Assembly: GCA_902363875.1 (NCBI GenBank)
Contig: CABJBO010000042.1
Span: 1 to 14,218, forward strand
DNA length: 14,218 bases
Direction: 5' to 3'
From: Coriobacteriaceae bacterium
Lineage (GTDB): Bacteria; Actinomycetota; Coriobacteriia; Coriobacteriales; Coriobacteriaceae
The translations under genes and the position numbers were made by a program. Of the stretch, positions 864 through 11,684 are shown in pieces (positions within the stretch are counted from its first letter, which is position 1; every line of letters starts with the position of its first letter). Under the pieces are notes generated by a model. The model saw only the letters and a list, made by a program, of their open reading frames with translations. It did no database searches and was not told the DNA's origin.

Positions 864-898
864 GTGCTGCATGTTGATTGTTGATAAGGTGGGTCTTT

Positions 899-2989
899 GT
901 GGATATTGATAGTTCGAATGTTGTTTCAAACAATGTGATCGGTTCAAATTCTCAGGTATCCATTACACAGAATATCGTTCATGCGCAAACTAGTGATATA
1001 AACCCTATTCCTCATCAGCTACCACTTGCACCTGATCTATTTGATCGAGTCGATATTCGGGATTCCCTCATATACAGTATTAATTCCGGAAAGCGAATAT
1101 TTCTATTTTATGGTGCTCCAGGAGTCGGCAAAACCTACTGCTTAACCAAATATGCTAATGAGGTTGCTGATTGTTTTTCGGACGGTCATATCTTTGTTGA
1201 TTTGAATGACTATCGATCCCTTGATGGGTCCCTTAATATCGACGAGCTCTATAAATTTGTCATTCGATCATTAACGATAAATTGCCCTTCCAATCTATCT
1301 GATATAAAAAGTCTCTTTAGATCAGTCACGTTTGAGAAGAAAATTCTACTTGTCCTAGACAACGTTTCCGATTCACTTGATATTGATTCCCTAGTTTTAA
1401 ACTCAGATGAATGCTTAATTTTATCTGCCGGTAATTGTAGAGAAGCCTGCGCATCTTATTTACATAAATTTAAGAGCATTCCAATTAATTCTTTCGATTC
1501 GGTAACCTCTGTCTCCTATCTCAGGGATCAGTTGAGGGAATGCGATCATGTCGATTTCGATTCTCTTGAAAACGACCCATTATTCCATCAATTAATCTAT
1601 GTTTGTGACGGTTTGCCTATTGTTTTGAGCAGGGCTGCGTATTTGATACGAGACAATGTCTATTCGCTTAAAGATATTGTTACAAGCCTATCAAATCCAG
1701 AACTAGAGCCTTTGATGGGTGCTTTGGATCTTGAGGTCGCGCATTTTGATGATCCTTCTTCAATTTTATATTCCTTGCTTGGTCGTCTTGGCGGAGGGCC
1801 AATTGCACTTTCATCCTTAACTTGCATAAGTAGCATGAAAGGCGCGGTAGCGGCTTTGCAGGGAAAATCGCTCATCAAGCGTTCATCAACAGCTTGGCTG
1901 GCATCTTGTTCTTCTCTTGAATCTCGTACTCTAATATCGATGAATCGTCAGATCTCAAATTATGCAAAAACCTATAACCCAAAAGATCGTATCTCTTTTG
2001 AAGCTCTTGTTCGGTCAGTTGTCCGGTACTACTGTTCCCTAATCGTCACACTTGATAATGTGCTTACCCCCAATCGGTTAAGAGTGTCTTCTAGCTCTCT
2101 GTTTGACTCGGATTTATTTTCCGAGATTAACCAATCAAATGCCGCAGACTATTTTCTTTCAATTCGTTTTGAACTATTTTCTGTCCTGGATTTGGCCTTC
2201 GATTTCTCACTATATTCCGAGGTGCTTTCTATAGCCGATTCCTGTTGGACTTTCATCTATGACAACGGGCTCTTCAGCCGAGGTCTTCACGTATATTCGC
2301 TCGGGCATCGTGCGGCTGTTAACTTAGATCGTTCTGATGCAGCATCTAGGATGCTTGCCTTACTATCTCGCTGCCAGCTACGGTTAAGCATGTATGAAAA
2401 ATCATCGGCTTCAATTTCGCTTGCCATTGAGCTCTCAGGTGATTCAACAAATCATACACTTAAAGGCTCTTTGCTGGAATTTAAGGGCCATACATTAAGG
2501 GAGGGGATTGCAGACTTTGATTTTGCAATCTCTTGCTACGAGGCAGCAATTTCTGAGTATCTGCTGTGCGATCCCGTAAATTATCGCGGGATCGCTATCG
2601 CTAATTTCTCGATTGCGGAGTCTTATTATGCACAAGGCGACTATCGATCGGCCCTTGACAGAGTCCAATCGGAGTTGAGTTCAGCCAACCAACTGGAACC
2701 TAATATGCGTTCAAAGATCGAGTTGTTTGGCGCTCATTGTCTATTTAAACTTGGCGAGCTCAAGAATGCTAATTCATTAGCGCGTAGCTGCTTGGAAACT
2801 TGCTCGAGTGGCGGATTGAGCGGAGTTGTTGCGGATGCTTATCAGCTTTTAGGGGACATTGAGTTCGATTTGAATAAAAAGGACGAGGCGGTGCGTTTAT
2901 ATTCTATATCCAGTGAGATTTATTCTCAGTTGGGAGATGTCGCTCAATGCAATATCGTTGCAGGCAAAATCCAACTTGTGAGCTCTTAG
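899..2989 (+). CDS. STAND-family NTPase (NB-ARC type) with N-terminal Asn/Gly tag and C-terminal TPR-like repeats
   Basis: The predicted product is a 696-aa signal-transducing P-loop ATPase. The start is taken as GTG 899, which has AAGGTGGG five bases upstream; an in-frame TTG at 878 has no such site. Residues 5-28 form an Asn/Ser/Val-rich tag (SNVVSNNVIGSNSQVSI). After a LPLAPDLFDR linker comes the nucleotide-binding domain: Walker A GAPGVGKT at 72-79, Walker B ILLVLDN at 149-155, and a GLPIVL motif near 238, as in NB-ARC proteins. From about 400 onward the sequence is helical with TPR-like spacing and would serve as sensor or scaffold. No enzymatic effector domain is visible, so a partner probably supplies that role. 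The gene is AT-rich compared with the IS and ugd remnants, and its stop overlaps that of the convergent gene. A regulator of the AfsR/MalT type is an alternative, but no DNA-binding domain is seen. Confidence 0.85.
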   Translation: MDIDSSNVVSNNVIGSNSQVSITQNIVHAQTSDINPIPHQLPLAPDLFDRVDIRDSLIYSINSGKRIFLFYGAPGVGKTYCLTKYANEVADCFSDGHIFVDLNDYRSLDGSLNIDELYKFVIRSLTINCPSNLSDIKSLFRSVTFEKKILLVLDNVSDSLDIDSLVLNSDECLILSAGNCREACASYLHKFKSIPINSFDSVTSVSYLRDQLRECDHVDFDSLENDPLFHQLIYVCDGLPIVLSRAAYLIRDNVYSLKDIVTSLSNPELEPLMGALDLEVAHFDDPSSILYSLLGRLGGGPIALSSLTCISSMKGAVAALQGKSLIKRSSTAWLASCSSLESRTLISMNRQISNYAKTYNPKDRISFEALVRSVVRYYCSLIVTLDNVLTPNRLRVSSSSLFDSDLFSEINQSNAADYFLSIRFELFSVLDLAFDFSLYSEVLSIADSCWTFIYDNGLFSRGLHVYSLGHRAAVNLDRSDAASRMLALLSRCQLRLSMYEKSSASISLAIELSGDSTNHTLKGSLLEFKGHTLREGIADFDFAISCYEAAISEYLLCDPVNYRGIAIANFSIAESYYAQGDYRSALDRVQSELSSANQLEPNMRSKIELFGAHCLFKLGELKNANSLARSCLETCSSGGLSGVVADAYQLLGDIEFDLNKKDEAVRLYSISSEIYSQLGDVAQCNIVAGKIQLVSS

Positions 2990-4518
2990 CCTTTCGTTAG
3001 GGAAACAAAGTGGCTATTATTGATTGTCTCTAATATGCATCGCGTCTTATTATGTTTTAGTAAGTACCAAATTGCTCGAGCGGTCAATATGCTATTCGGG
3101 CAATCAGTTTGTACCTTAAACAGATTTACTCTATTTAGTATTGCTATCCATTCAGAGTCTTTATTTATACAAACTAGCTTGGTTGTATCGCTTTGTGTGT
3201 CCATTATACGGCTTATGAATTTACTCGAAAGGGTATTGTCTATGACTACTATTTCAGGTGGTGCTAAGTTAATTGAAGGCATCTCCTCCTTTTCTATGAG
3301 TTGGGTTCTGGGGCCATCGAATACCCAGTTGTAATCCAATGATGAGCTTTTAAATGCTTTTATGTTAAGAATCGCCTCGCCTTTTTGTTGTTTTACCAGC
3401 GTTATGGTTCGATAGATTTCATTATCTATCTGGATTGGTCGCGGTCGTTGCGCCAGAGTATTTTCCGGCGCTTTGTTACCAACCTTTATTCCTAGTATCG
3501 AATATGCCAAGTGTTGAATCGATTCTAATGAGTGTCCAACGTTTGCAAAAGCTGTTGGCTCCAAGCGATTTGTTTGTAATGGCGCAGCTTCCAAGGCTCT
3601 AATTACCTTTAGAGCCTTATAGCTGTTCTTTATAGGTGTTGAATTAATATTTGCATGCTCAACTATGGCAATCCCCTTGGGGATGCTATCTTCGCTCGGT
3701 TCGTATCTTAAAACCGGTTTGCCTATTGAGGCACCATAGTTTGTAACTGATCCATAATCGCCAATTACGATATCTGCGGCAATTATCGCTGCCTCCCAGC
3801 CCATTTCATGTGGAACGATTTTTAGTCCTGCGTACAGCTCCTTTTTAAACCATGTTTCTATTTGCCATTCGCCATGTGCTGCCCAGATATACGGATGAAG
3901 AATCATCGCCACCCTGTATTCCGTATATGGAAGTTCCTTTAGTAAATCTTCTGCAATTGTTCTAATATTTGATAAAAGTGAATTTGGTCCCCAGGTTGAA
4001 GTGATTATTACCAGCTTCTGGGTATTGCAATTTAATGCAGCCCTGTATTCTTCTCTATATTTTTCCGAATATAGGATTTTGTCAAAAACGGGATCCCCCA
4101 CATAAACGGTTTTAATAATTGCTGGTAAGTCGGTTATTTCACCCTTTGAAGTCGGTTCGCAAATATATGTCGGATACTCTCTTGTCTTTAGGCGATTTAT
4201 AGCTTTTAGGGTGGAGTCGTATGCCCCCGATTTACCTAATGCGGGTCCATGCTGAAATAGCAAAAGTGGGGCGTCAATCTTTTCAAAATCGCCATTTGGA
4301 CTTGCTGCTATTGCTAGGTCAAATTTTTTGGTCAAAGCAATATCCCATGGCAGCAAAATGCATCCGGCATCTTTCAAATACAAATCGAGCGACCTGTCAA
4401 CTATTGATTTTGGTTTAGGTATTGTAAAGACGCATTGGATTCTGGTGTCGGCAAATATTGCAGAGCATACTTCTTCAAGTCGACTGAAAATGTAGTCAGC
4501 CCTAATGATAAGCAGCAC
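2986..4518 (-). CDS. GT-B-fold protein resembling CDP-glycerol glycerophosphotransferases; start affected by a poly-C tract
   Basis: The open frame encodes 510 aa from GTG 4518, the first canonical start in frame. Visible motifs are FQHGPALGKSG (88-98), VYVGDPVFD (138-146), TSTWGPNSLL (173-182), AMILHPYIW (204-212), and VIGDYGSV then GASIGKPVL (251-270). The last pair matches the nucleotide-sugar or CDP-alcohol binding end of TagB/TagF-like and UDP-GlcNAc 2-epimerase-like GT-B folds. From memory, Streptomyces encode close relatives often misnamed translation initiation factor 2. The C-terminal 170 residues are unrecognised. GTG 4518 has only a weak ribosome binding site. The same frame is open back to 4623, and ATG 4598, 15 bp after the upstream gene ends, would join it if the C run had ten rather than nine bases, adding 27 residues. 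The gene appears co-transcribed with the small gene upstream and converges on the STAND gene. The substrate is unknown. Confidence 0.75.
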   Translation of the reverse strand: MLLIIRADYIFSRLEEVCSAIFADTRIQCVFTIPKPKSIVDRSLDLYLKDAGCILLPWDIALTKKFDLAIAASPNGDFEKIDAPLLLFQHGPALGKSGAYDSTLKAINRLKTREYPTYICEPTSKGEITDLPAIIKTVYVGDPVFDKILYSEKYREEYRAALNCNTQKLVIITSTWGPNSLLSNIRTIAEDLLKELPYTEYRVAMILHPYIWAAHGEWQIETWFKKELYAGLKIVPHEMGWEAAIIAADIVIGDYGSVTNYGASIGKPVLRYEPSEDSIPKGIAIVEHANINSTPIKNSYKALKVIRALEAAPLQTNRLEPTAFANVGHSLESIQHLAYSILGIKVGNKAPENTLAQRPRPIQIDNEIYRTITLVKQQKGEAILNIKAFKSSSLDYNWVFDGPRTQLIEKEEMPSINLAPPEIVVIDNTLSSKFISRIMDTQSDTTKLVCINKDSEWIAILNRVNLFKVQTDCPNSILTARAIWYLLKHNKTRCILETINNSHFVSLTKG

Positions 4519-4582
4519 TAGTTTTTCGAATTGTACGGTGTTTCTTTCTGGTGTATTTATGGGGACAAATTTAATATTGCTC

Positions 4583-4591
4583 GGGGGGGGG
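4583..4591. repeat. Nine-base G run (poly-C on the coding strand), possible phase-variation tract
   Basis: Nine consecutive G on the + strand lie just inside the ATG at 4598-4596 of the GT-B gene. With nine bases the ATG frame ends at a TAA (4559-4557) after 13 codons. With ten (or seven) it runs straight into the 510-aa frame. Such tracts change length by slippage. Confidence 0.7.
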
Positions 4592-4615
4592 TGCTCATTG
4601 ACGCTGCTTTCGTTA

Positions 4616-4984
4616 CTATCTAACTACCTTTTGCGATATGTTGATGCTTGATCCGCTATTTCCGATAACGATGTTGCTATTCGTGGAGTTAACGTCGATA
4701 TCGAGCTCGTTATTGGCAAATACGGTGGCCATGCGTTCCCACGCATTTATGAGACGGTCTAATTCCGGATCGCGCGTAAATTCATCCATCTTTTTGATCA
4801 TTTGATTTGGATCTGATAGTTCGATCAAAACATCTGCTTCAGACACGTCATCGGCAGAGACATATTTTGACGACAAACCGCAAATGAGCCTTTGGGTTAA
4901 TACCCACAAGCCTGAACCCAGCGCACCTGCCCCGCCTTTTGCCAATCCATTAAAACAAGCTTCGATAAGAGTGGGGAGGTCCAT
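4616..4984 (-). CDS. Small 122-aa protein with C-terminal Asn/Gly tag, partner of the STAND cassette
   Basis: The family is not firmly recognised. The start is ATG 4984, with AAAGG seven bases upstream. Residues about 10-36 are rich in Gly, Ala and Leu (GGAGALGSGLWVLTQRL) and could be amphipathic or membrane-associated. A charged helical middle follows (about 45-90), including DPNQMIKKMDEF and DRLINAWERM. The C-terminus, residues about 97-119, is an Asn/Ser/Gly segment (STNSNIVIGNSGSSINI). From memory, Streptomyces encode comparable roughly 120-aa proteins ending in VQVGDHNTQ-like tails. The gene precedes the GT-B gene on the same strand with about 17 bp to the putative ATG of that gene, so the two are likely one operon. 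Because the tag also occurs in the STAND protein, the product may be the effector or adaptor recruited by it; this is inference. Confidence 0.7.
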   Translation of the reverse strand: MDLPTLIEACFNGLAKGGAGALGSGLWVLTQRLICGLSSKYVSADDVSEADVLIELSDPNQMIKKMDEFTRDPELDRLINAWERMATVFANNELDIDVNSTNSNIVIGNSGSSINISQKVVR

Positions 4985-6583: not shown

Positions 6584-6829
6584 GTGTTACTCATCGACAG
6601 GAACAATGACCCAGTGAAGACGGTGTACTATATCGCCGCATTGTCGTACTCGATAATTTCCGTTGCAGGTGAAGTCGAGTCGGCCGATTTATACAGATGG
6701 GTTTGCGACTCCGCACGATGTGGTGTGGTCCCCTATGAGTTCTTTCTTATGGCCATCGATTTCTTATTCCTCGTTGCGGGCTTAGAAGCTACAAGTGAAG
6801 GGAGGCTCCGTGTTCATAGGATCGGTTAG
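6584..6829 (+). CDS. ABC-three-component system middle component
   Basis: This 81-aa, mostly helical protein begins MLLIDRNNDPVKTVYYIAAL and contains SADLYRWVCDS and YEFFLMAIDFLFLVAGL. Size, helical make-up, and position between the C-terminal-domain gene and the DUF2326 ATPase fit the small middle component of ABC-3C systems, which bridges ATPase and effector. The GTG start at 6584 has AGGGAG two bases upstream, slightly close. The ATPase gene begins inside its last codons (20-bp overlap from GTG 6810), implying translational coupling. No DNA-binding or catalytic motif is visible. Confidence 0.65.
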   Translation: MLLIDRNNDPVKTVYYIAALSYSIISVAGEVESADLYRWVCDSARCGVVPYEFFLMAIDFLFLVAGLEATSEGRLRVHRIG

Positions 6830-8561
6830 GCTTCGGAATTCAATGACCGGTTGTGTCATGCGTGAGGTTGTATTTCACAAAGGGGCCAACCTCATCTCCG
6901 ACACTTTTGAATCAGATAGACACAATAAGGTCGGGAAGACGACATTTCTCAAGCTCATAGACGTACTGCTCGGCGCAAGCGGTAAAGTCGGCCTATACAA
7001 GGACGACGAAACGAATAGCGTCAATGAAGAGCTGCGTGACATTATCAATGAGAAGCGTGTTGTGGGCGAGATGACCCTCGTGAACTCGTTTGAAAGGCTC
7101 TCAGACCACAACGTCGAGCTCAAGGTAGAGCTGTTCCCGAGAGGTAAGTATTTCTTCGATGGCGAGAAGGTTAGTGCAAAACAATACAGGGAGCTGTTGG
7201 GTGAAACCCTATTTGCGGTTAGTTCTAACAAGCCCACGTTCCGTCAGCTCATCAAATCCTTCGTTCGTATTTCCCTAAGCGGAGACGACTATTCATTCCT
7301 CAGAACGTTGCCCAGAGCCTCTATCGCCGATTATAGGGCCGTTTATAATTACTTGTTCGACATCTCGGACGCTGAACTTGACGCTAGGTTGGCGGAGCTT
7401 AACAGGGAGCTGAACAAGCTCAAGGAGTCTGCCAAGCAGTACAGACGTCTTGCCGGCATCGAGGACGAGGAGCAGCTTACCCAAGTGGGCGTGGCTCTAG
7501 ACCGCGAGTGCCAACGCGCGGAGTCCAGGCTCAATGACGTGCTTGACGCCGATGAGTTCAAGGCTAACAGGGAGGCGATCGAGGAAGCAAGGAGCCAATA
7601 TGCCAGACTGTGCTCCGAATTGGCCGAAATCGAGTTCAGGATGGAGCGCAACGCCGAGTCTATCGAGCGTGCTAAGAAGGAAATTGTAAAGCAGGCCGAC
7701 CTGTCGCTTTCGCGTAGCTTCTACGATGAGGTCTGCTCCCTCATTCCCTCGGTAAACAAGACATTCGAGGACATGGTCGCGTTCAACCGTGCGTTTTGCG
7801 AGAACGAGATTGCGTACTTCCAGGAGGTCGGGGCCGAACTTGAGTCGGAGAGGGTGGGCATCCAGGCCAAACTCGCAGCCTTTTCGGTTGAGAACTCACG
7901 GTACCTCTCACTCATTGATGGCGATGCGATGAGCGAGTACGAGAATCTTCTCGGAGAGTGCATGCGCCTGCGCCAGGAGATGGGCAGAAACACCGAGGTT
8001 CTCAGCACACTACAAGGCTACGACGAGCGCATAAAGACCTTGGAAAGCCAAATTGCAAGTCTCTCCGATGGTGGGGAGGAACGTGAGTCCTCAAACTCGT
8101 CCCATCAGGATATGATGAACTCCTTCAATTACTACTTTACACCGATGGCAAATGCCGTTAACGGAGAGAGGCCCATATTGACTTATTCGACCGCTACGGA
8201 CAAGTTCCCGGTGGCCATTACCGACCTCAATGGATCAAGTACCGGCACACGCAAGTCCCTTTTGGCGGTTTACGACCTTTCGTATCAGGAGTTCGCAATC
8301 GCCAACAAAATCGAGGCGCCTCGCTTCGTGGTTCAAGGCGTAGTCGAGAACGTCGAAGGTGAAGACCTGAAGAAAATTGTCGACATTGCAAATAGCATAA
8401 ACTGCCAGTTCATTGTTGCTGTGCTCAAAGAGAAGCTTGACTCCTCGCAGATACCCCAGAATGCGCAGGATTCCATGTGTATCCTCGAACTGTCAAAGCA
8501 GGATAAACTGTTCCAGGGTCCAACGGTCGAGGCGAACGAGCGAGGTCGTGGTCTGGGATGA
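6810..8561 (+). CDS. DUF2326-type ABC/SMC-like ATPase of an ABC-3C system
   Basis: The product has 583 aa from GTG 6810, which follows AAGGGAGG by five bases and is better placed than the in-frame GTG at 6795. The P-loop lies at 35-46 (SDRHNKVGKTTF), a form typical of DUF2326 ATPases. Residues about 180-440 are coiled coil, rich in Glu, Arg and Leu, as in Rad50/SMC-like proteins. The C-terminal half-domain has the signature-like NGSSTGTRKSLLAVYDLSY near 480-500. Next come PRFVVQGVVENVEG (504-517) at the Walker B position and CQFIVAVLKEKL. In relatives I recall, the QG at 509-510 is HD; here neither an Asp nor a Glu follows the hydrophobic strand directly. That may impair ATP hydrolysis. The protein would be the sensor and motor controlling the membrane-tethered effector. 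Confidence 0.8.
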   Translation: MFIGSVRLRNSMTGCVMREVVFHKGANLISDTFESDRHNKVGKTTFLKLIDVLLGASGKVGLYKDDETNSVNEELRDIINEKRVVGEMTLVNSFERLSDHNVELKVELFPRGKYFFDGEKVSAKQYRELLGETLFAVSSNKPTFRQLIKSFVRISLSGDDYSFLRTLPRASIADYRAVYNYLFDISDAELDARLAELNRELNKLKESAKQYRRLAGIEDEEQLTQVGVALDRECQRAESRLNDVLDADEFKANREAIEEARSQYARLCSELAEIEFRMERNAESIERAKKEIVKQADLSLSRSFYDEVCSLIPSVNKTFEDMVAFNRAFCENEIAYFQEVGAELESERVGIQAKLAAFSVENSRYLSLIDGDAMSEYENLLGECMRLRQEMGRNTEVLSTLQGYDERIKTLESQIASLSDGGEERESSNSSHQDMMNSFNYYFTPMANAVNGERPILTYSTATDKFPVAITDLNGSSTGTRKSLLAVYDLSYQEFAIANKIEAPRFVVQGVVENVEGEDLKKIVDIANSINCQFIVAVLKEKLDSSQIPQNAQDSMCILELSKQDKLFQGPTVEANERGRGLG

Positions 8562-8702
8562 GTAGTGGAGCACCGGACAAGTTAAAACAGATTACGGACA
8601 CTACGCACCATGGAAGCATGGGCCGGCAACGCACCACTCGATGCTGGGCGAATGCCCGGATTGCATGTTACTTGGAGTCCTTACGCCGTCGACCCTTTAT
8701 CC

Positions 8703-8918
8703 ATCCAGGGCGTCATGAAGCGCGTGAAGGCCAAGGGCGTGCCCGTGGTGGTCTACGAGCGCACGCTGGACGCGCCGGAGTTCTTCGGCTCCGAGGTGAC
8801 CCACGACCTGGAGGCCTTCAAGGCCGGCTGCGACGTGATCGTCGCCAACCGCTGGAGCGACGAGCTCACGGACGTGGCGGACAAGGTGTACACGAAGGAT
8901 CTGTTTAAGAGGGAATAG
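8703..8918 (+). pseudogene. ugd: UDP-glucose 6-dehydrogenase, C-terminal fragment
   Basis: The last 71 codons of a UDP-glucose/GDP-mannose dehydrogenase remain: IQGVMKRVKAKG, VPVVVYERTLDAPEFFG, HDLEAFKAGCDVIVANRW and a final KDLFKRE. This is the UDP-binding C-terminal domain; the N-terminal NAD-binding and catalytic Cys domains are missing. Similarity begins abruptly at ATC 8703, and the preceding 100 bases encode nothing related. The fragment is GC-rich, unlike the ABC-3C operon before it. It probably marks the chromosome into which the defence genes were placed, the rest of ugd having been lost or moved. Without a start and the catalytic part it should be non-functional. Confidence 0.8.
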
Positions 8919-10225: not shown

Positions 10226-10590
10226 TATTTAAATCCTTCAATCGTAGTGAACTCCGTGAATAGCTTCTCAACTATTTACCCGATTACTAAGGTGTTGCTA
10301 CAACGGTATCCAACTTGCGAGGACACGACATGGGGCGTCATTGAGGAAAGGTTTTGGTAACTTGATATTGTCAATTTCCCTGTGCTGCTAATTTTGGAAT
10401 CAGCGGTCGGCATATTTGCCTAACGTGAATCTTCCTTTCACCGACTGGCAAAACGATTTACACCTAATTTTGGGGTTCGTTTACAGCTAATTCGTTCGCC
10501 ACTCGCCTGATCTCGCTACACTAATAACTGCTGCTACCAGGTAGTTTTCTGGCGCAGTTTCCAATGGCTCTTGCGAATATCGGAGCGGTT
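10226..10590. other. Intergenic region between abiH and the surface-protein pseudogene
   Basis: No gene is seen. It should hold the divergent promoters, but no convincing -35/-10 pair stands out. A 13-bp direct repeat with one mismatch lies at 10457-10469 (TTTACACCTAATT) and 10480-10492 (TTTACAGCTAATT), 23 bp apart, about two helical turns, as expected for an operator. An inverted CTACCAGGTAG occurs around 10533-10543. Confidence 0.4.
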
Positions 10591-11684
10591 ATGTTTGCCA
10601 CCGCGTTCCACACTAGCCGACACTACATCCTGTTTACTGCCATGGCCTGCCTATGCGTTTTGCTGGGCGGGCCTTCTTATGCCGCGGGCGCGGACAGCCT
10701 GTTCATCGCGGGCGCCACGTACTACGAGCCGGGTGTGTCGGGCCCCGGTTGGGCCTGGACCGATGTCGACCATCTGCATCTTAACGGCTACACGGGCGAG
10801 GCCATCGGCGCCGACGGCGAACTGGTGGTGACGCTGACCGGGCAGAACACTGTTGTCGAGACGAGCGCGCCCGACGTGGACATCTCGCGGTGCGGCATGG
10901 AGGTGTGGGGCGATCTGACGCTCCGCGGCACCGGGTCGCTGGTGGCCACAGCTCGCAGTGCGGAATCTACGTGTCGGGGACGCTCGCGGTGGACGGCTGC
11001 AAGGTTGACGCGCGGGCCGACGGCGCCGGCATCGCGGATGCGCGGGTGGCCGGCGTGATCGCGGACGGTCTTGCCGTTCGCGGCGGTGGGCGCGTTGTCG
11101 CCACGGGCGCGGGCTCTGGGGCGGGCGTGCGCGCCTATGGTGTGTGTCTGCTGGGCGGGGCTGCCGGCGGTGGCGCGGCCGGGCAGCTTGCCGTCGATGC
11201 GTCCTGGCTGGATGCGTCGGGCGCCGACGGCGGCGTCGCCTGCCTGGGCGGATCGCTTGCATCCGCACGCTTTGTGGCGCCTGCGGGCGGGGCCTTTGGT
11301 GCGGGCGGCGTGGTGAATGCCGACGGGTCCGTGGCAGCGCGTGTGACGATCGAGCCCGTGGACGCCACGGCGTCGGCGGGGGAGACCGGTGGGCCCGATG
11401 TGCCGGGGGATGGCACGGGCGAGCCTTCTGGTGGCGCCGACCCTGCTGCGGGGTAACTCGGTACGGGACCTGCGACGGATCCTGCGGTGAAACCCGCAAT
11501 CGCGACAAAGACGACAACCACGACGGCGGTGACCAAGACCGCGGTCGCCTAGGCCTCAAACACCAAGTCCGCAACCGCGACTTCCTCATCACTTCCCAAG
11601 ACCGCCGACAGCCATTGGATCGCAATATCCCCGGTACTTTTCCTGCTAGGGACGGCACTTCTCAGTGCAGCGCATCGATGCTAA
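10591..11684 (+). pseudogene. Secreted LPxTG-type surface protein with beta-solenoid-like repeats, frameshifted with two internal stops
   Basis: ATG 10591 has GGAG five bases upstream; an ATG at 10564 has none. The start gives a signal peptide with hydrophobic core ACLCVLLGG and a likely cleavage after SYA. The mature part (HLHLNGYTGEAIGADGELVV, GMEVWGDLTLRGTGSLVATA) resembles the carbohydrate-binding, right-handed-helix-like surface proteins of gut bacteria. A one-base loss near 10950 moves the frame; it resumes as SQCGIYVSGTLAVDGCKVD. In that same frame stops occur at 11454-11456 (TAA) and 11550-11552 (TAG). Beyond them the frame still encodes a Thr-rich linker and a sortase signal, LPKTAD, a hydrophobic stretch (ISPVLFLLGTALLSAA), HRC and a final TAA. 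One frameshift plus two stops mark it as decayed unless assembly errors are involved. Confidence 0.75.

Follow-up and report, generated by a model that had tools for sequence, protein, structure and literature searches.

The 14.2-kb window considered here (the whole stretch of 14,218 nucleotides from a Coriobacteriaceae contig) raises the question of why a gene for a GT-B-fold transferase, open over 510 codons and lying between the two partners of a putative immune cassette, is closed directly behind its proposed start codon. A first-pass annotation, made from the letters alone, had attributed this to a run of nine C acting as a candidate phase-variable switch. The features on which an answer depends are the following, with coordinates counted from the first letter of the window.

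878 to 2989, plus strand: STAND/NLR protein (NB-ARC-like ATPase, TPR), convergent with the GT-B gene
899 to 979, plus strand: N-terminal motif of the STAND protein, matching the C-terminus of the small protein
2986 to 4518, minus strand: GT-B-fold transferase frame, 510 aa from GTG
4519 to 4584, minus strand: 22 open codons from the tract to GTG 4518, with protein-level conservation (the relative P0001 has the same residue at 21 of 22 positions)
4557 to 4598, minus strand: frame from ATG with the tract as read, 13 residues and a stop (putative OFF state)
4583 to 4591, minus strand: C9 homopolymer tract, proposed slipped-strand switch, with C12 at the matching place in two further loci, L097 and L098
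4596 to 4598, minus strand: ATG, proposed true start codon, 17 nt past the upstream stop and the start of the in-frame relative P0001
4616 to 4984, minus strand: small helical protein of 122 aa, candidate BELL-like effector, in the direction of the GT-B gene
4619 to 4687, minus strand: C-terminal motif of the small protein, STNSNIVIGNSGSSINISQKVVR, scoring 53 against the N-terminus of the window's STAND protein

Read on the minus strand, the upstream gene ends with TAG 4618-4616 and is followed 17 nt on by ATG 4598-4596, AGC A and nine C, exactly the spacing that the first-pass annotation had given. In its present form the frame of this ATG yields 13 residues, MSTPPRAILNLSP, and then stops, leaving the GT-B frame closed; both the length of the tract and the closure after 13 codons, as claimed before, were confirmed on the sequence. 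Beyond the tract, 22 codons without a stop (PSNIKFVPINTPERNTVQFEKL) lead to GTG 4518, the first listed start of the 510-aa frame, ahead of which no Shine-Dalgarno-like stretch was seen, in keeping with the earlier description of this GTG as the sole alternative start, poorly served by a ribosome binding site. No other C or G run of at least seven occurs in the window, where one C9/G9 was observed against 0.07 expected. At least one such run appeared in 10 of 200 dinucleotide shuffles, and taken alone the C9 is only modestly unusual; its weight comes from its position at the start codon and from the evidence of relatives. Promoter-like sites were found at the level of shuffled sequence, and no terminator-like sites were found.

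With this in mind, the relatives of the enzyme are of particular value. A search of about 5.8 billion proteins gave 13 relatives and a profile search 22, amounting to 26 distinct proteins. Among these, P0001 (95% identical, representing a cluster of 404 sequences) has 537 aa, that is 510 plus 27, and its residues 1-27, MSTPPPSNIKFVPINTPERNTVRFEKL, differ by a single substitution from the extension that had been predicted for the in-frame form. Thus the relatives do not all begin at the position of GTG 4518, P0001 having the extension that leads back to ATG 4598. P0002 (81% identical, 42 sequences) does begin at the GTG position, which would fit the annotation of an out-of-frame allele, although the choice of a gene caller could give the same result. 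A start composed of M, one to three further residues and at least three prolines is found in 6 of the 26 proteins (P0001, P0006, P0007, P0010, P0027 and P0028), and P0008 has TPPP after a longer start; such a proline run is absent from the other 19, many of which are distant actinomycete-type proteins or lack the N-terminus. The pattern NTVxFxK, encoded by codons before the GTG position, is present in diverged homologues. At the DNA level, close relatives were not found in genome contigs, viral contigs, plasmids or phages (by single-protein scans, among others), nor in the genus, family and order of G376, the genome matched through the IS30 fragment described below, nor in viral contigs queried with a 22-base pattern from the window and the 122-aa protein.

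The remainder of the window is rich in defence-type genes between 5999 and 14057 and carries a mobile-element fragment at its left edge:

2 to 801, left edge: piece of an IS30-type transposase, 90% identical over 456 bases to the copy in G376
6584 to 6829: ABC-3C middle component MC6
6795 to 8561: DUF2326 ATPase
10225 to 9119: AbiH
12667 to 11939: RloB/AbiLii-like protein
14057 to 12642: AbiLi-like AAA ATPase

Between these, a short frame at 8558-8918 is probably a gene remnant, which we take, by eye, to resemble the C-terminal end of a UDP-glucose or GDP-mannose dehydrogenase. A GC-rich gene resembling those of secreted or surface proteins seems to continue from frame 10564-11058 into frame 10890-11456 and, being spread over two frames, looks frame-shifted.

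The IS30 fragment was matched in 7 of 396 genomes drawn from a phylum, G376 being the closest. Within the class of G376, the enzyme was matched in 3 of 396 genomes, clearly in G539 and G725 and marginally in a third (E 1.6e-4); the two clear matches are 33-34% identical to the window enzyme and 69% identical to each other. When the search was extended to the family of G725 (138 genomes) and the order of G376 (395 genomes), G539 and G725 remained the only clear matches, the others lying at E 4e-5 to 7e-4. The loci of these two genomes, the Coriobacteriia-type L097 and L098, reproduce the layout of the window: a small gene ending in the motif, an ATG, a tract of C12, the GT-B gene and a convergent STAND gene. 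Apart from the C12, neither stretch (16.0 kb and 16.5 kb, L098 being partly masked with N) contains a C or G run of at least seven. The start ATG is in frame with the enzyme after the tract in L098 and out of frame in L097.

A census of the family indicates that frame-changing repeats are common in these genes and vary in kind. Relatives were taken from a profile scan of genome contigs, belonging by their titles to Actinomycetes and Acidimicrobiia, and the census comprises 91 loci: 81 from the best 80 of 121 relatives and one viral contig, together with L097, L098, the window and seven plasmid loci. Arrays were defined as exact repeats of at least three copies and at least 15 nt, or mononucleotide runs of at least 9. 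In this set, which includes the best 80 of 121, 100 GT-B regions cover 182 kb; 62 of the 100 contain arrays with a unit not divisible by three, mostly of 7 or 8 nt, and 38 have no such array at the thresholds used. Inside the 182 kb there are 49 arrays of 7 nt, 8 of 8 nt, 6 mononucleotide runs, one 5-mer and one 6-mer, against 2, 1, 1, 6 and 10, respectively, in 946 kb outside, where one 4-mer, five 9-mers and one 12-mer also occur. For arrays of 7-8 nt this means 57 against 3 and a density ratio of about 99, which is a description and not a test because related genomes are not independent. An earlier count had placed 9 arrays of 7-8 nt in 948 kb outside the gene regions as first delimited, several of which fall in second GT-B copies. 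A second copy is present in nine loci (L005, L012, L014, L020, L022, L027, L038, L043 and L062), and in seven of them (L005, L012, L020, L022, L038, L043 and L062) the copy farther from the matched gene has a 7- or 8-nt array as well.

The unit sequences vary widely between loci, and the arrays lie at the 5' end (38 arrays in 37 genes) or internally, about 340-415 nt into the match. A third site, deep in the coding region at about 1270-1290 nt, holds poly-C in two Acidimicrobiia loci, 22 C near 7249 of L001 (next to N) and 15 C near 7234 of L010, and the protein P0011 has a run of ten prolines in the part that matches it. Mapped by eye, the repeat sites would fall in loops or tails of the enzyme. 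In many 5'-array genes a start codon lies downstream of the array; the repeat of such genes may influence transcription or the leader, and an effect on the frame need not follow. Among the 21 genes with testable internal arrays, 14 are in frame and 7 out, a proportion in which selection of the best 80 of 121 relatives may favour in-frame copies; the poly-C run of L001 was left unscored in this count, and L063, cut by its contig end, was counted as 5' with an array that is internal.

Comparisons between close relatives provide the most direct view of such a repeat changing length. The protein search of plasmid records returned seven records, all of which were examined. Between the soil strains NBC 01668 and NBC_01372 of Streptomyces anthocyanicus, all 1684 aligned bases of the gene stretch agree, and the one internal gap, of 56 nt, equals eight units of the 7-nt repeat GCCGGGA. 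The array measures 123 nt in NBC 01668, where the frame is broken, and 67 nt in NBC_01372, where it is open; the annotated CDS is shorter in NBC 01668 because of the broken frame. Over 11.7 kb the same pair shows 23 mismatches in 6295 columns and 22 in 5448. Three related plasmids, about 95% identical, two from S. coelicoflavus and one from Streptomyces sp. SYP-A7193, include two out-of-frame genes and one in frame. Furthermore, between L052 and L053 (91% identical) there is a difference of 115 nt at the array; for L060 and L066 (93% identical) the array is 54 nt in both. A tract length that differs between close relatives with a change of frame is thus seen in the S. anthocyanicus homologues and, for the window's species, at the protein level through P0001. 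An NLR gene beside the enzyme gene was not matched at E 1e-8 in the S. anthocyanicus pair or in L114, which speaks against a coupling to an NLR.

Altogether, we propose that the GT-B gene of the window carries a true simple-sequence-repeat phase switch and that C9 is its OFF length, a reading to which we assign a probability of roughly 0.8. The in-frame P0001, the poly-C of homologues, their 7- and 8-nt repeats and the strain pair all support the earlier suggestion of a phase-variable gene. The nearest competitor holds that the nine C are a miscount in sequencing or assembly, such that the gene is switchable and the sequenced cell was ON. Homopolymers are prone to sequencing error, and the large cluster of P0001 has an in-frame representative; against this, out-of-frame alleles occur in L097 and in homologues on records described as complete plasmid sequences, and P0002 begins as an out-of-frame allele would, with the reservation about gene callers made above. 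We regard a miscount as unlikely, without being negligible. It is far less probable that the 510-aa frame is translated from GTG 4518 behind an unimportant leader that happens to contain poly-C. That GTG is the first listed start and that P0002 is predicted from the same position speak for it, yet the codons before GTG are conserved as protein, with 21 of 22 residues retained in P0001 and NTVxFxK in diverged homologues, the first strand of the P0001 model starts at residue 26, ahead of the GTG residue 28, and a Shine-Dalgarno-like stretch is not visible. About as little credit can be given to a decaying pseudogene in which the frame shift is an ordinary disabling mutation, and we rate it marginally lower still: the frame is closed at its start and an IS30 piece and other broken genes share the window, but the other 510 codons are open, P0001 is intact at 95% identity, and the shift lies within a tract that homologues carry at the same place. 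Given the open codons, the intact relative and the conserved residues before GTG, both of these last readings were set aside.

If the switch is real, what it acts on is a separate matter. The P0001 model (pLDDT 88) has a GT-B double-Rossmann fold, with residues 1-9 and 421-424 disordered, and fold comparison matched it to the wall teichoic acid polymerases TagF/TarL and to sugar-nucleotide epimerases. Compared with TagF/TarL and the non-hydrolysing UDP-GlcNAc 2-epimerases, the window enzyme adds a C-terminal domain, after about residue 375, that lies outside the matches. Membership of the CDP-glycerol glycerophosphotransferases (Pfam Glyphos_transf, PF04464) was rejected, at 15.3 bits against a gathering cut-off of 22.1. 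A library of viral models gave generic glycosyltransferase-type matches only, and a sequence search of solved structures one weak match. Phase-variable glycosyltransferases are a classic kind of switched gene. Eggerthella lenta is one of the Coriobacteriia. Its capsule is phase-variable via large inversions, by which it escapes a phage (preprint PMC13174815). Such precedents, along with the fold matches, favour a real switch on an enzyme that alters a cell-surface polymer, be it phage receptor or immune target, with the NLR as a neighbour or guard and the GT-B enzyme outside its pathway. Set against this is the arrangement of the genes: in 77 of 84 loci an NLR gene lies convergent to the GT-B gene, no more than 4 kb downstream (of the others, two gave no match and five matched best at another place), and GT-B and NLR genes alternate in some loci with a second GT-B copy, arrays being present in second copies too. 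This tail-to-tail pairing and alternation suggest a functional tie between the two, as the first-pass annotation had supposed for the STAND cassette, and we hold a surface enzyme independent of the NLR to be possible at less than even odds. That the switch arms or disarms the NLR cassette, which overlaps with the surface-polymer reading, appears to us about evenly balanced.

The small protein adds to the picture of the cassette. Its C-terminus scores 53 against the N-terminus of its own NLR in the window, 70 in L001, 63 in L097 and 65 in L098, compared with a 99th percentile of 47 and a maximum of 75 among 5550 cross-locus scores from 75 loci, a set that includes related motifs; no convincing small partner was found for most of the 75 loci tested. 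Its model (pLDDT 66) comprises five helices and a disordered tail with two short strands. On S. coelicoflavus-type plasmids, the N-terminal domain of the NLR resembles the small protein of L001 (E 4e-6, a single comparison). The likeness to the NLR-fused domain of L111 was reached by 0 of 500 shuffles for L001, 2 of 500 for L097, 5 of 500 for L098 and 24 of 500 for the window, whose small protein is by itself only weakly similar. The NLR genes of L109, L110 and L111 open with a domain like the small protein that L001 encodes as a gene of its own, and this fusion links such a protein to the NLR. Two NCBI proteins related to the one at 4984-4616, P0024 and P0025, have its first 50-70 residues and then end in short, divergent tails as if frame-shifted, the pattern that one would expect from disrupted alleles of a costly effector.

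We thus hypothesize a conserved slipped-strand switch on an NLR-paired GT-B enzyme, captured here in the OFF state. Translation would start at ATG 4598, and slippage during replication would alter the length of the C tract and move the ATG in and out of the enzyme frame, so that a clone would hold both ON and OFF cells. Mispairing as the cause and switching in living cells are what we infer from the tract, its two frame states and the repeat-only difference between homologous strains. The enzyme family would keep or re-make this switch, as C tracts at the start codon in Coriobacteriia-type loci, as 7- and 8-nt arrays at the 5' end or internally in many Actinomycetes, and as poly-C at the third site in two loci of the Acidimicrobiia. 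Toggling might change the immune state of the cassette or its surface target in a fraction of the cells, which could lessen autoimmunity or keep phage-resistant minorities. Tentatively, and with slightly less than even confidence, we extend this to a phase-variable NLR repertoire in Actinobacteria, in which repeat-switched GT-B genes, each tail-to-tail with an NLR and in some cases in arrays of several units, vary independently from cell to cell and a clone would be a mosaic of differently armed or marked cells, the repeat being kept or re-invented with 1-, 7- or 8-nt units at three sites.

Repeat-driven phase variation is already on record for surface genes, as it is for a few genes of restriction and Pgl systems. 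What would be new is a repeat switch in a gene that travels with bacterial NLRs, the relatives of animal and plant immune receptors. If true, one component of some bacterial NLR cassettes is expressed stochastically, with relevance to how bacteria tolerate suicidal immunity and to cloned cassettes that may seem inactive when an OFF allele was taken. The hypothesis also predicts that many GT-B genes which databases mark as frameshifted are not pseudogenes but momentary states of a switch.

The literature covered, outside which most subscription papers fall, showed no account of repeats in the NLR-paired GT-B family, and the comparison is with systems that share its parts. Dyrka et al. (2020) reportedly described BASS/BELL NLR amyloid signalosomes of filamentous bacteria. 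Judged from its features, the window, with a small protein and an NLR joined by a common motif, would have the layout of such a signalosome. In that system too, according to the accessible part of the article (PMC7889193), the partners share a motif: a short one at the N-terminus of the NLR matches the C-terminal end of a small helical protein whose gene is close by. For BELL, a role as a membrane-targeting death domain is hypothesised there. The same part of the article mentions no glycosyltransferase (PMC7889193). The window differs in having a GT-B enzyme gene between the partners, carrying the repeat switch, and its motif carries no assignment to one of the ten BASS families. The Pgl system of Streptomyces coelicolor offers the closest likeness in principle, an actinobacterial defence gene turned on and off through a homopolymer: in the available portion of the paper, Pgl+ cells become Pgl- at 1e-2 to 1e-3 and revert at 1e-3 to 1e-4, and this switching is attributed to the G tract of pglX (PMC4365076). 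The pglX product, however, is a DNA methyltransferase and not a GT-B enzyme, it has no NLR or small helical partner, and the repeat of the GT-B family has units of 1, 7 or 8 nt at several sites of the gene. Pgl/BREX families were absent among the PADLOC matches listed for eight window proteins (for the AbiLi-like ATPase, the best 25 of 64). In the contingency loci of Haemophilus, Neisseria, Helicobacter and Campylobacter, frame-shifting repeats lie in or near the start of coding regions, often those of glycosyltransferases. The window's gene resembles these loci, which include restriction-modification genes as well as glycosyltransferases, in having such a repeat at its coding start. It stands apart from them in that, across the GT-B family, the length, sequence and site of the repeat unit vary from lineage to lineage, and in having an NLR as the partner of the gene.
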